36,719 bases of DNA from positions 1 to 36,719 of the IMG/VR virus record IMGVR_UViG_3300043446_001841; one strand, 5' to 3'. The notes under the pieces were generated by a model. That model was not told the DNA's origin. It searched no databases and was given only the letters and a program-made list of their open reading frames with translations. Shown piece by piece: positions 21,778-33,748 of this stretch. This stretch comes from a virus. A program made the position numbers and the translations under genes. Numbering within the stretch: position 1 is the stretch's first letter; the number at the start of each line of letters is the position of its first letter.

Positions 21778-22422
21778 TCACTCACCTTTGAGGCCTTGTG
21801 TCGCGTTTCTAGCGTTGCTTGTGTCCATCGCGCTACTCGCTTGCTTGTCTGCTGTGGCGCTCATGCCTCCCTCAGCCGCTCCTCGCTCGACCCCCTCCGG
21901 CGATAAAAAATCTTTATCTGCCGGCTGTTGCGGATCTTTAATCCGGTACTTGCCGCCGTTATCCCGTTCTAGATCAATGACTTGCGTAATCTCTTCCGCT
22001 TGTTGTGCCGTGGTTGTGCCAATTGATCGCTGGCCAAGCCAGCTGAGCTGCACCTGAATGCCGCCTTCCACGCTTGCGTTGATCTGGCTCGGCAGCACCT
22101 TGCTGACCAGGCTCACAAACGCCGCGCGATCGCTCTGCGTACCGTTGGCCAAGCGCGCCAGGTACTGCGTGCCGCCGACCTGGTCGAACGCCTCGAGCAC
22201 CGCGTCGCGCAGGTTGGTCAGCCGGTTCCGAACGCCCTTCGGTCGACCCGGCGGCACGGGCGCGCCGGTGAGCGGGCTCACGGCCGGCGCCTTCGCGTCC
22301 TTTTCCTCGTTTCCCCCTGCTTTTTCCGGCTCATTCACCGTTGCGTTAGACGCAGCGTTAAACGCCGCATGAAGCATCGCGGCCTGAAGCATTCGCTGTT
22401 CGTCTTGTTGAGTTTCGATCAT
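21778..22422 (-). CDS. Probable terminase small subunit, 214 aa
   Basis: ATG overlaps the upstream stop (ATGA). Residues ~1-55 are Ala/Glu/Lys-rich and flexible. Residues ~58-112 hold GRPKGVRNRLTNLRDAVLEA, then DQVGGTQYLARLANGT and AAFVSLVSKVLPSQI. This is a helical DNA-binding pattern repeatedly seen just before terL in phages of this kind. The C-terminal half is acidic and disordered. It would recognise the packaging site and stimulate TerL. It is separated from terL by 188 nt, unlike the tight coupling elsewhere, so TerL may be separately controlled. Confidence 0.65.
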   Translation of the reverse strand: MIETQQDEQRMLQAAMLHAAFNAASNATVNEPEKAGGNEEKDAKAPAVSPLTGAPVPPGRPKGVRNRLTNLRDAVLEAFDQVGGTQYLARLANGTQSDRAAFVSLVSKVLPSQINASVEGGIQVQLSWLGQRSIGTTTAQQAEEITQVIDLERDNGGKYRIKDPQQPADKDFLSPEGVERGAAEGGMSATADKQASSAMDTSNARNATQGLKGE

Positions 22423-22598: not shown

Positions 22599-22628
22599 AC
22601 CTATCTCCCGATGGTTTCAATTTTGTAA

Positions 22629-22656
22629 CTGCTCTCACTCCCCTGCTCTCACTCCC
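22629..22656. repeat. Perfect 14-bp tandem duplication
   Basis: CTGCTCTCACTCCC occurs twice in immediate succession (22629-22642 and 22643-22656) in non-coding DNA between the leftward early genes and the terS operon. Confidence 0.9.
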
Positions 22657-22678
22657 ACACCCTATCTAAGTTGAAGCA

Positions 22679-22836
22679 GATGCACTTGATGCACCCCACT
22701 TTTGAATACTTTTACGCTCCAAGCAGTTGCAGTATGTGAACCCCCTTGAGGGGGGTTCCATACATCCTGCACTTACTGCATCAGACTTGCACTCACTAGT
22801 CGATGCAACTTCGATGCACTTGATGCACTTGATGCA
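22679..22836. repeat. GATGCA iteron cluster flanking a hairpin
   Basis: GATGCA starts at 22679, 22688, 22802, 22813, 22822 and 22831, with an inverted TGCATC at 22777. Four units are spaced 11, 9 and 9 bp and extend to TGATGCACTT. The group brackets the hairpin at 22732-22763. Such iterons suit a replication initiator, a small terminase or a regulator. Confidence 0.75.
22732..22763. other. 13-bp hairpin in the iteron region
   Basis: GTATG-t-GAACCCCC-TTGAG-GGGGGTTC-CATAC folds into a 13-bp stem with one bulged T and a short loop. No U-tract follows on either strand, so it is a weak candidate for a simple terminator. Confidence 0.7.
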
Positions 22837-22841
22837 AACGC

Positions 22842-23934: not shown

Positions 23935-24227
23935 GGTTTGAGCTCCTGGCGCTGTGGTGGGTGGGCGTAGAGAGGTGTACCCGGCTCCAAATCTCTGTAA
24001 AGCAAACCTGTACTCCAATCATGATCGGACACTTCGCCAACAGGCTCTTGCTTTCTTGCATCACAAGCAACACAACCCTTACCTGCACAATGTTGGCAAG
24101 CCCCGTCTTGCTTCTCTGCCTCTGCAATGGCTTGGCGTAAGTCCTTGGCGTATGCGTGAAAGTTAACACCGCCACCTTCTGCGGCTATTTCCAACGCCTC
24201 AAGCGCCTGTTTCAATACTTCAATCAT
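23931..24227 (-). CDS. 98-aa phage early protein with CxxC cluster
   Basis: MIEVLKQALEALEIAAEGGG opens a helical part, followed by CQHCAGKGCVACDARKQEPV with two C-x2-C pairs that may bind zinc. It ends in a Pro-rich LYAHPPQRQELKP. The 'ALEALE…AIAEAEKQ…EPVGE…LY-HPPQR' layout is very common in phage accessory proteins; the CxxC insertion is less so. It is coupled to the primase-helicase stop by ATGA. Confidence 0.6.
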   Translation of the reverse strand: MIEVLKQALEALEIAAEGGGVNFHAYAKDLRQAIAEAEKQDGACQHCAGKGCVACDARKQEPVGEVSDHDWSTGLLYRDLEPGTPLYAHPPQRQELKP

Positions 24228-26350
24228 TCGTCGTCCCCTTCACGTTGTGCCCATGTGGGCGCTGCCCCTGATCCCAGTGCCACACGCACGCCACCGGCCT
24301 CGGTGAGCACCACGCGCTGACCCGTCATGCGGTTGGGTTTCCTGAACTCCTGCTGCTCAATCAGGCGCTCGCGCTCGAGCTCCTGCACGATCTGGAAGAA
24401 CTCCCTGCGCTCGATGCGCGGGAAGTCGTCCTCCTTGCGCAGCACGTTGTAGATGTTGGTGGTGGGCGCGTTGGCCTTCATTGACAGGTTCACGCCCGCC
24501 TCACTGGCCACCTTGATCAGTTTGAGAATCGCAGCGCGGTGGGTATTTCGCATCACCGACTTCGCAAGCTGAGTGCTGGCCACCGTGCCCCAGCGCTTGA
24601 ACACCTTGGCGCCCGAATCGAACTCGAGGCGCATCTCTTCCTGCAGCGGCCCCAGGTTGCACTTCTCATGGCGCAGCACCACGGTGTCAGCGTCGCGCAC
24701 CATCGCCCAACGTGACCTGGCTGAGTTGTTCCAAGCGGTTGAACCGCTGAATGTGGTGTTGCTGTCGAGCCCTGCCCCGCCGCGCACTGACGCCTTGTCG
24801 ACGTGTGCCAGCAGCAGGACGGCCGCGCGTGTGACGTGGGCAATCAGGTTGAGCGAGCGCATGAACCCACGCACGGCAGTGCGATCGTTCTCGTTGTCCG
24901 CAAACACGTCGGACGCGTTGTCGATGATCAGCACCTCGGCTTTGAGGCGCACGGTCGTGTCGGCCAGCCACTGCATGCGCTCGGTGACCGTGCCGTCCTT
25001 CCACAGCACGCAGTCGGCTTGGGTCAGGTCATAGACCACCAAGCGATCGGCCAGTGTCGACATTTCGACACCCAAGTCGGCACAAATGTTGGCCACGCGG
25101 AAATGGACGGTGCGGGCCTCGTCCTCGCCGGAGAGGATCAGCACCTTGGATGGCTTGGCTTGGATGTCGAACAGGCTCATTCCGTGAGCCAGTGCCACGC
25201 CCAGCTGCAGGGACAAGTTGGATTTGCCGACACCGCCGTTGGCGCTCAGCAGCGTGACCGTGCCCTCGGGCAGCCAACCGTCATAGCGCCAGCTGGTGGG
25301 CTCGGGCTTGGTGTTGTTGAGCGCGCCCCAGTCCATTGGCTCGAGGTCGCCGGGCTTGGCCTCGGGGGCAGGCTCATCAGGTGAGCTTGTGCCCAGGTTG
25401 ATGTTGATGGTCGGCGGCTTGCGCTCCTCGGGCGCGAACTTCTCGGCTGAACGCACGGCACGCGGAATCTCAGCACGGCGCTGCTCCCAGCGTTGCACCT
25501 CAGCCGGGTCACCTGGTCGCACCTGATCCATGAGCGAGTACAAAAACTCGACGGCCGCGCCAGGGAACATGCCGCCACTGACCAAGCTCGCGGCCAGGCG
25601 GGTGATGCTGTCGTGATAGATGCGCGCTGACGGGTTGGGGTCAGTCAGGCCGGTGATCATCTCGCCGGCATGATTTTGTTGCCCTGTTGATGAAGGGGAC
25701 GTTTTCGGCAGCTGTGCTGCGATGCGCAAACTGTCTAAGTCAACGCCGACGGCCGCGCAGGCGTCGTCCAATGACCAACGCACGCTCGGGTTCCACATCT
25801 CTAGGCGCACTGGCCATTCGCCTGCGGCGCGCGGTTTGGTGTTGCGTCCGACCGGCAAGCGAACGTACCGAACGCAGGCGTTTCCAGAGGCGTCATTGCT
25901 GCGACCGCGTGCGGCCAAAGCACTCATTACCCTGTCAACGAGTTGCCTATTCCGGGTATCAGGGTCTTCCCCATCGAGGAAGATACCTATCTGAAATTTG
26001 CCTGGGCTGGTCTGTAGGGCGTACGAGTAACCCTGCACGTCATTTAGTTGGACATCGTCTAGGACAAGAACCGCAAGACGCACGAACGCGTCCTTGCGTC
26101 GAACGATCTCACCGTCCTCGGTGGCAGTCAGGACGGACGTGCAAAAGTAGGTGTTGTCTTGCTCAGCCCTGTCAATCAAGGCCGCCTGTTGCGGCATGCC
26201 CTTGTAAGCACGCCCACCCCATACGAGCGGTGTCGCGTTGCCTGGGTCAGCTCGAAAGTTGCAAACCCAACCGTGTGTGCCGGGTTCGAGTTGGCCGTAT
26301 ATCTCGGCAAGGAAGTCGCTGTTGGTCATCGTGAGTGCTCCGACGACCAT
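24224..26350 (-). CDS. Primase-helicase fusion (RepB-like primase plus RecA-fold ATPase), 708 aa
   Basis: Start ATG 26350 follows GAGGTG and lies 2 nt past the previous stop; ATG 26329, with GGAG, is an alternative. Residues ~85-200 resemble the archaeo-eukaryotic-type/RepB-like primase: VLVLDDV, TSPGKFQIGIFL and VRYVRLPVGRNTKP. Residues ~355-580 form a RepA/RecA-fold ATPase with Walker A NGGVGKSN (~371-378) and LSGEDEARTV, plus Walker B VLIIDNAS (~473-480) and LLLAHVDKASVRGGAGLDSN. The C-terminal ~100 residues (~610-708) look winged-helix-like. It should prime and unwind phage DNA. It is one gene where many phages use two. Confidence 0.8.
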   Translation of the reverse strand: MVVGALTMTNSDFLAEIYGQLEPGTHGWVCNFRADPGNATPLVWGGRAYKGMPQQAALIDRAEQDNTYFCTSVLTATEDGEIVRRKDAFVRLAVLVLDDVQLNDVQGYSYALQTSPGKFQIGIFLDGEDPDTRNRQLVDRVMSALAARGRSNDASGNACVRYVRLPVGRNTKPRAAGEWPVRLEMWNPSVRWSLDDACAAVGVDLDSLRIAAQLPKTSPSSTGQQNHAGEMITGLTDPNPSARIYHDSITRLAASLVSGGMFPGAAVEFLYSLMDQVRPGDPAEVQRWEQRRAEIPRAVRSAEKFAPEERKPPTININLGTSSPDEPAPEAKPGDLEPMDWGALNNTKPEPTSWRYDGWLPEGTVTLLSANGGVGKSNLSLQLGVALAHGMSLFDIQAKPSKVLILSGEDEARTVHFRVANICADLGVEMSTLADRLVVYDLTQADCVLWKDGTVTERMQWLADTTVRLKAEVLIIDNASDVFADNENDRTAVRGFMRSLNLIAHVTRAAVLLLAHVDKASVRGGAGLDSNTTFSGSTAWNNSARSRWAMVRDADTVVLRHEKCNLGPLQEEMRLEFDSGAKVFKRWGTVASTQLAKSVMRNTHRAAILKLIKVASEAGVNLSMKANAPTTNIYNVLRKEDDFPRIERREFFQIVQELERERLIEQQEFRKPNRMTGQRVVLTEAGGVRVALGSGAAPTWAQREGDDE

Positions 26351-26352
26351 GC

Positions 26353-26595
26353 TCACACCTCGACGGCGACAAGCTCCATCACGTTGATGGTCACGCTTTG
26401 CTTGCGTGCCATCGCGATCAGCTGCGGCCAATACCGCTGCGGAATCAGTCCACCTGTGCCACCAGGCGCGGGCTTGCACCAGCGCGAGAGTGTTGACTTG
26501 TCGAGCCCCAGCTCGGCAGCCACAGCACTCTTACCCCCCAACTTTTCAATGATCGTGTAGGCGGGCTCGAGCTTATGGATAACGGGAATGGTCAT
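26353..26595 (-). CDS. HTH regulator with carph-isopro-type domain, 80 aa
   Basis: ATG 26595 with AGGAG upstream. KLGGKSAVAAELGLDKSTLS is a helix-turn-helix. GGTGGLIPQRYWPQLIAMAR matches the conserved 'GGTGG-IP' tail that names the carph-isopro regulators. It is transcribed divergently from the repressor and heads the leftward replication operon, the position of Cro or CII in lambdoid phages. Its DNA target is probably in 26596-26674. Confidence 0.7.
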   Translation of the reverse strand: MTIPVIHKLEPAYTIIEKLGGKSAVAAELGLDKSTLSRWCKPAPGGTGGLIPQRYWPQLIAMARKQSVTINVMELVAVEV

Positions 26596-26616
26596 GTTTG
26601 ATTCTCCTAATGCATT

Positions 26617-26632
26617 GCGATTGACTCATCGC
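26617..26632. promoter_or_regulatory. Operator candidate between divergent regulators
   Basis: GCGAT-tgactc-ATCGC is a perfect inverted repeat (5-6-5) inside the 79-nt gap between the two divergent regulator starts. This is the place for a CI/Cro-type operator. A TTGACT occurs in its centre, but I could not find a clear -10 for it. Confidence 0.5.
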
Positions 26633-26674
26633 GGAGTTTATGTCAGTCTCAATGACGACTTGTATGAGGCTCAA

Positions 26675-27256
26675 ATGAATACCGAGTGGTTTCGTCAGGT
26701 ATTGGCATCCAAGAAGCTGTCACAGCGCAAGCTGGCTCAGCTGATGGAGCTCGATCCGGCTGCTGTGTCGCTGATGCTGCGTGGCCAACGCAAGATGACC
26801 AACGAGGAAGCGCACCAGGTCGGCATCATCCTGGGCGTGAAGACTACAGAGGTCTTGCGTCAGGCCGGCATCGCGGTGAGCGATGACGTGCGCCATGTGA
26901 AGGTCACAGGGCACATTGATGAAAACGCCGTTGTCACTTTGTTCCCCAAGCGCACGCACGACAAAGTGGTCGGGCCAGCGGACTGTCCCGAGGGAACGTA
27001 CGCGCTGCAAAAGCGCTCGCCCAACAGCCTGAAAGACGGCTGGATGTACTTTGTGTCACCGGCAGAAAACGACCCGCGTGCTCATTTGGGTGAGATGTGT
27101 TGCATCGCGCTCGAGAACGGCGACCACCTGGTCAGCTTCCTGCATCGCGGTTACCGCTCTGGCACATTCAATCTCATCAAATGCACTGGTGAATCTCTGC
27201 GCACCGACGCCAATGTGGTGTGGGCCTCGCGCATTCTGTGGGTCAAGCCTCAGTAG
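26675..27256 (+). CDS. Xre-family repressor, likely lysogeny repressor, 193 aa
   Basis: I chose ATG 26675 (MNTEWFRQVLASKKLSQRKL) with GAGG upstream, because the longer frame from 26588 overlaps the divergent gene and its operator. Residues ~12-65 are an HTH_3 domain (SQRKLAQLMELDPAAVSLML). The C-terminal part is beta-rich (TGHIDENAVVTLF, GTYALQKR, VVWASRILWVKP), resembling the S24/LexA-like fold. However, I see neither the Ala-Gly cleavage site nor a clear Ser-Lys pair. It may therefore be a repressor that RecA does not cleave. Confidence 0.7.
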   Translation: MNTEWFRQVLASKKLSQRKLAQLMELDPAAVSLMLRGQRKMTNEEAHQVGIILGVKTTEVLRQAGIAVSDDVRHVKVTGHIDENAVVTLFPKRTHDKVVGPADCPEGTYALQKRSPNSLKDGWMYFVSPAENDPRAHLGEMCCIALENGDHLVSFLHRGYRSGTFNLIKCTGESLRTDANVVWASRILWVKPQ

Positions 27257-32791: not shown

Positions 32792-33748
32792 ATGGCAATC
32801 AAGAAACGCGGCGACACCTACTGGATCGATGTCACTATCAACGGCAATCGCATCCGCGAATCCCTCAAGACCGACGACCCCAAGCAGGCCAGGGAGCTGC
32901 ACGACATCCGCAAGGGTGAGCTGTGGCGCACGCGCATGCTCAAGGAGCGCCCCAAGAAGACGTTCAAGGACGCCTGCGACCGCTGGTTGGTCGAGCGCTC
33001 ACACAAGGCGTCCATCGAGGACGATCGCCAGAAGATCGTCAAGCTCACGCCCATGATCGGCAGCAAGCTGCTGTCCGAGCTGGATCGTGACGCCCTCGAG
33101 GCCACCCTGCCGGCCGACACCAAGCCTGCCACCCGCAACCGTTACCGCGCCCTGTTGCGTGCGATCTTGCGCTGCGCTGAGCGTGAGTGGGACTGGCTGG
33201 ACAAGGCCCCTACCCTGCGCACCGAGGCTGAGCCACGCCGCCGGGTCGCATTCCTGACACGCGAACAAGCGGAAAGTCTTGTTTCACACCTACCGGAAAA
33301 GTATCGGTGTCTTGTCCGTTTCGCTTTGCTCACCGGATTGAGAAGATCGAATGTCCACGGCCTGCGCTGGGAAGACGTGAACCTGGCCGCCGGCATGGTG
33401 GTCGTGCATGCCGACCAGGCCAAGGCCCGCGAGCGCATCCTGGTGCCGCTCAACAGCCAAGCCAAGGCCATGCTCGAGGCCATGCCAGAGCCCCGTGAAG
33501 GCCTCGTTTTCAAGTGTCCTTTGCGCATATCGCCCACCACCTGGACGAACGCCTGCAAGCGCGCTGGCGTGCCTTGGTGTCGCTTCCATGACCTGCGCCA
33601 CACCTGGGCGTCGTGGCATGCGATGGCCGGCACGCCCATGTCGGTGCTGCAGGAGCTGGGCGGCTGGCATTCGGCCGAGATGGTGCGCAAGTATGCTCAC
33701 TTGGCGCCGGAGCATTTGGCGGCCGCCGCAGAGAAGGTCACGCTGTGA
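32792..33748 (+). CDS. int: Tyrosine integrase, 318 aa
   Basis: N-terminal arm-binding part (KKRGDTYWIDVTINGNRIRE), core-binding region ~55-145, catalytic domain from ~155. Catalytic residues: Arg184 (TGLRRSNV), Lys211 (ADQAKARERI), His266 and Arg269 (FHDLRHTW), His293 (GGWHS), Tyr301 (VRKYAHL). All are present. It integrates the phage at attP 34081-34124, just beyond one small gene. The same-strand box upstream suggests regulation with the early operon. Confidence 0.95.
   Translation: MAIKKRGDTYWIDVTINGNRIRESLKTDDPKQARELHDIRKGELWRTRMLKERPKKTFKDACDRWLVERSHKASIEDDRQKIVKLTPMIGSKLLSELDRDALEATLPADTKPATRNRYRALLRAILRCAEREWDWLDKAPTLRTEAEPRRRVAFLTREQAESLVSHLPEKYRCLVRFALLTGLRRSNVHGLRWEDVNLAAGMVVVHADQAKARERILVPLNSQAKAMLEAMPEPREGLVFKCPLRISPTTWTNACKRAGVPWCRFHDLRHTWASWHAMAGTPMSVLQELGGWHSAEMVRKYAHLAPEHLAAAAEKVTL

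Follow-up and report, generated by a model that had tools for sequence, protein, structure and literature searches.

The iterons of the IncQ replicon RSF1010 are ~20 bp long, and its ssi hairpins are the sites at which primase starts. The O protein of phage lambda recruits host DnaB through P. Binding of lambda-type O proteins to iteron arrays in phages is described in a comparison of Stx phages (PMC7466680). In the RepA_N/ori system of the PLE satellite, the DNA-binding domain of the initiator covaries with the ori and the two have been swapped repeatedly, as was proven by origin exchange (PMC8263062). A stem-loop immediately downstream of the gene for ORF904, a multidomain replication protein with primase activity, is the origin of the crenarchaeal plasmid pRN1 (PMC4234260).

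Here we compare with these systems a locus in a viral DNA of 36,719 nucleotides, the whole of which is called the window below. We consider, with a probability of about 0.84, that its gap at 22599-22841 serves as a replication origin, which a one-chain primase-helicase-initiator reads through its C-terminal domain.

Gene order around the gap

The genes are arranged leftward in the order divergent CI/Cro-like pair (26588-27256, plus strand, and 26353-26595, minus strand), primase-helicase, small ORFs, the gap, a small ORF, a terS-like gene, terL and structural genes. The primase-helicase gene, rep (24224-26329, minus strand), encodes in one chain of 701 residues a putative RepB'-like primase, an RSF1010-RepA-like helicase and a winged helix; its start was placed at Met51 of the listed ORF (open frame from 26479), which removes an unlikely upstream start. 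No RepC-type PHROG match was found among the small neighbouring ORFs. The TerS-like gene (21778-22422, minus strand) is the downstream neighbour of the putative origin, and its product is not the proposed reader of the repeats.

An ORF at 32792-33748 reads like a tyrosine integrase and, together with the CI-like and Cro/YdaS-like genes at 26353-27256, suggests a temperate phage. The search of the window for tRNA genes gave none. Both ends of the contig (3-1547 and 36055-36717) are tail-fibre coding sequence with ~100 similar residues in common, and the contig is therefore probably a permuted and almost complete genome whose break falls within a repetitive fibre gene.

Repeats and hairpin in the gap

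The first-pass annotation had described a 243-nt non-coding gap before terS, with six direct and one inverted GATGCA at 9–11 bp spacing in the main group, a 13-bp GTATG…CATAC hairpin and a perfect 14-bp tandem repeat, and each of these could be located. The gap lies between ORFs at 22599-22841. GATGCA starts on the plus strand at 22679, 22688, 22802, 22813, 22822 and 22831, and is inverted (minus strand) at 22777-22782; these seven copies in 158 bp compare with ~0.14 expected (Poisson P ~2e-10), whereas the whole window has 28 against 33 expected, so that the motif is not enriched overall and only the cluster is unusual.

The true repeat unit is the 9-bp TGCATCAAG on the minus strand, which is the coding strand of rep and terS. 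The main array (22799-22836, minus strand) has four direct units, TGCATCAAG, TGCATCAAG, TGCATCGAA and TGCATCGAC, with measured spacings of 9, 9 and 11 bp. The interval between array and hairpin holds the inverted or degenerate units TGCACTTAC, TGCATCAGA and TGCACTCAC, as read on the plus strand (22768-22796). The G+C-rich hairpin follows at 22732-22763 (no strand assigned), with CCCCC first on the minus strand; GTATG-GAACCCCC pairs with GGGGGTTC-CATAC to form a 13-bp stem in which one base is bulged. The hairpin is also returned when the minus strand is folded, and the region around it is more structured than 200 out of 200 shuffled sequences (z −3.9). Beyond it are two distal direct units, TGCATCAAG and TGCATCTGC, 9 bp apart (22676-22693, minus strand), and a CTTAGATAGGGTGTGGG motif (22654-22670, minus strand), which is conserved in relatives with different units and lies there between the arms of an inverted unit.

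With this motif and the distal arm, the feature extends to ~22629. The perfect 14-bp tandem repeat of the distal arm (22629-22656, no strand assigned) is TGCTCTCAC when read inverted. The arm as a whole (22629-22670) reads TGCTCTCAC/TGCTTCAAC, of the TGCTTCC/TGCTCTC type, a mismatch to the window's own TGCATCAAG. TGCTTCC units are used by two relatives (L016 and L036), and in another (L004) the left and right units likewise differ. To judge by these letters, the distal arm is perhaps a relic of an earlier TGCTTCC-type specificity, as if a switch had been left half finished, although this is suggestive only.

The same layout in related phages

Scans with terS and with the primase-helicase, with 350 relatives reported, gave well over 100 loci among the matches listed, in many cases the same contigs under overlapping records; all of the relatives except one are metagenomic contigs. 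For the statistics, near-duplicates were removed at 97% C-terminal identity. At the DNA level the window matched nothing in the phage collection, the scan of genome contigs for the primase-helicase gave no relative, and the plasmid search returned weak helicase-domain matches only. Few new loci were added when the proteins of L138 and L089 were used as queries.

Most of ~70 related viral loci among the matches listed have a repeat array in the interval from the primase-helicase gene to terS, and in many no more than a few tens of bases separate its start from the stop codon of the primase-helicase gene. Its layout is constant: 3–5 units of TGC plus six variable bases, a first spacing of 9–10 bp and then 11 bp, and inverted units. 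A CCCC..GGGG hairpin, ~50–80 nt away from where the array starts, is present in 36 of 49 relatives compared with 16 of 588 random windows; this oriented test replaced a generic best-stem test, which is confounded by the inverted units. The C-run is nearly always first on the rep-coding strand, and after the hairpin comes a CTTAGATAGGGTGTGGG-like motif enclosed by a palindrome of the unit. As at iteron-type origins, several direct repeats at approximately helical spacing thus lie in non-coding DNA near a putative initiator gene.

What varies is the unit itself: TGCATCAAG, TGCTCCTCA, TGCACCGAA, TGCACCGCA, TGCACACGC, TGCACCCGC, TGCTTCCGG, TGCACGCGC, TGCGCTCGC, TGCGCCTGC, TGCACGCAC and others, ~20 types in total, with letters shared by nearly all copies within one genome. 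The first-pass annotation would have given up the site if close relatives lacked the iterons. The letters GATGCA are indeed absent from them but the array is present with another unit, and judging by iteron absence would mislead.

A perfect DnaA box, TTATCCACA, occurs at the same place in six array regions and nowhere in the other 714 kb of the loci. In the distant cultured Rhodoferax phage P26218, TGCTACAAC repeats lie between the genes for RepA and TerL; the passages found in its genome paper (PMC4657236) make no mention of this array as an origin.

Two observations on individual contigs may be recorded here. Four loci (L223, L226, L228 and L229) have non-homologous Rep C-termini, with no TGC-type array in the available DNA downstream of the rep match, and are possibly further initiator/origin types. 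The 71-kb contig IMGVR_UViG_3300047554_000338 (L016, L024) has two terS/rep systems, with units TGCTTCC and TGCACCGAA, and is either a double prophage or the product of joining two phages during assembly.

Domains of the primase-helicase

The primase-helicase contains an AAA_25 domain. For its helicase part, the nearest relative both by sequence (phmmer 6e-8) and by fold (Z 25.8, rmsd 2.3, 222 residues) is RSF1010 RepA. When the full-length fold was used in the search, the match list was filled by the helicase domain. The RepB-primase family PF16793 matches 16 of 38 members, at best with 1.2e-4; the value for the window protein, 0.0055, is weaker than the Pfam cut-off. The C-terminal domain (residues 580–691; 24257-24592, minus strand) is the proposed iteron-binding domain. 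Its model (residues 580–690, pLDDT 84.7) is a MarR/PadR-like winged helix with fold matches to VanR, PadR and MepR (Z 8–10.9), and PF03551 (PadR) matches the C-terminus in 4 of 49 members (best 5e-5). Both the model and these matches give the domain the winged helix-turn-helix fold.

A winged helix of this kind is like those of transcription regulators, and Rep might use it only to autoregulate or to switch late transcription toward terS, with the array as operator and replication starting elsewhere. The site does lie where early and late genes meet, on the coding strand, and the hairpin could be a terminator. However, the array is downstream of rep rather than upstream, neither a sigma-70-like promoter nor a T-run terminator was found in the gap (the scan for them was empty at the hairpin), some relatives have DnaA boxes, and the winged helix is fused to a helicase and a primase. 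We therefore regard an operator as unlikely.

Covariation of the unit with phage proteins

In 43 non-redundant full proteins, the distance between units correlates with the distance between C-terminal domains (Mantel r = 0.37, p = 5e-4; partial 0.43) and not with that between other parts of the same chain (primase −0.08, middle −0.06, helicase 0.04). Units chained automatically, without curation, gave 0.43 for the C-terminus versus 0.04 for the helicase and about 0 for the others. The maximum in a sliding window falls at residues 605–645, and the correlation with the C-terminus holds in the 27 loci where the array is at least 500 bp from the gene (r 0.31, p 5e-4). A k-mer distance over the whole region was less selective than the unit distance, with helicase and C-terminus equal at 0.19 each; it mixes hairpin and lineage signal, and restriction to the unit restored the separation. 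The distances of TerL, Cro and CI show no correlation with the unit, and an operator for CI or Cro was rejected on this ground.

The first-pass annotation had proposed an origin or a packaging site, with the primase-helicase or TerS as binder of the repeats. A pac site, at which packaging would start on binding of the adjacent TerS-like protein, accords with the array being before terS in nearly all relatives and with a raw correlation of TerS distance with the unit of 0.27 (p 5e-4). This falls to 0.056 (~0.06) once the C-terminus is accounted for, whereas the C-terminus keeps 0.33 when TerS is accounted for. Moreover, a relative (L010) that keeps the primase half (63%), TerS (63% identical) and TerL, and in which the helicase and C-terminal half are replaced, has repeats of a wholly different type, ~12 unrelated GGGACA units instead of TGC units (L010 1-1780). 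TerS is not supported as the binder, and a pac site is very unlikely; the origin half of the proposal is well supported, since the unit covaries with the primase-helicase C-terminus. In sequence comparison, the unit tracks only the C-terminal winged-helix domain among the proteins tested, which gives good support to the primase-helicase as the probable binder. A structured RNA encoded in the gap, for which the minus-strand fold beating all shuffles might speak, is hardly credible, given that an Rfam search of the gap gave no match and that the unit changes in concert with a DNA-binding domain.

The covariation can be followed to single residues and bases. At residue 666, in the wing, N is present in 36 of 36 sequences with A or T at unit base 4, and D, H or S in 13 of 13 with G (Fisher P 4e-12 at the tips, relatedness ignored). 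Of the 13 sequences with G at base 4, 12 have K at residue 668. At residue 623, N goes only with G at base 8 (26/26) and R only with A or C. These residue-level associations were picked after viewing the data, with light held-out testing only. Among held-out loci, L200 (D) and L231 (S), both with G at base 4, follow the residue 666 rule; L197, found afterwards and close to a training sequence, also obeys it. On a tree of residues 5–575, base 4 and residue 666 each change ~10 times, like shuffled labels, with no discordant tip. The specificity cassette thus changes independently of the backbone, and its two halves stay matched. The pair L045/L042 has 97% identity over residues 5–575 versus 70% in the C-terminus, and units TGCGCTCGC versus TGCACGCGC. 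L197/L200 is a similar swap (backbone 97%, C-terminus 66%), and L052/L044 are 98% and 74% identical in the same two parts.

Discussion

We infer origin function because the protein is of initiator type, the unit covaries with it, relatives have DnaA boxes in the array region, the position fits and P26218 has a similar array. Some observations go against an origin: the window has no DnaA box, the distal arm is unlike its own unit, the GC skew of the window, which had been put forward as a check for ori, makes no sharp turn at the site, and in some relatives the C-terminus is non-homologous or no nearby array was found. A DnaA box beside the iterons is not universal among iteron-type origins.

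In the mechanism that we propose for the origin, the Rep winged helix would bind the 9-bp TGCATCAAG units, spaced by about one helical turn, and, once bound, would place the fused RepA-like hexameric helicase and the primase at the site. The hairpin may provide a single-strand site for priming or belong to the region that melts. Host DnaA may help in some relatives, as their DnaA box suggests. Winged helix and origin would switch specificity jointly, often with the rest of the protein nearly identical. On balance, we favour the idea that in this widespread group of uncultured phages the winged-helix tail and the origin form an exchangeable cassette, switched many times under a near-deterministic residue-base rule (666/base 4, 623/base 8), perhaps driven by incompatibility or by rivals that target origins.

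Partners such as initiator and origin must change on both sides together, and they are hard to study with the few natural variants known. These dozens of phages offer ~20 origin specificities on nearly constant backbones, including natural pairs that differ almost only in winged helix and origin, so that the evolution of replication specificity and its drivers become directly testable. They also offer a practical route, from sequence alone, to the origins of uncultured phages in this group. The concept is known from PLE RepA and lambda O; we found no description of this primase-helicase-initiator family or of its residue-base rule in the open-access literature, and both appear to be undescribed.

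The comparison with known systems can now be made more closely. The RSF1010 replicon shares with the phage locus a RepA-like helicase, a weak RepB-primase match and iterons with a hairpin, but phage Rep fuses the activities in one chain, has a MarR/PadR-like winged helix in place of a separate RepC and belongs to a phage genome; the ~20-bp oriV iterons are not matched by the phage units of 9 bp at 9–11 bp spacing. As with PLE RepA and the ICP1 Odn nuclease, covariation with the origin is confined to the DNA-binding domain, and swaps have recurred in conserved backbones (PMC8263062). PLE differs in its RepA_N domain and three ~30-bp semi-palindromic iterons, and in having two specificity groups versus the ~20 unit types here (PMC8263062), and the remainder of its RepA is thought to recruit the replisome rather than being a helicase-primase (PMC8263062). 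Lambda O is likewise a phage-encoded initiator on an iteron array, but the lambda iterons are inside the O gene, whereas here the array is outside rep and the helicase is part of the initiator. Finally, pRN1 shares a multidomain replication protein with primase activity and an origin just downstream of its gene, but has a large stem-loop origin without iterons and proteins of other families.
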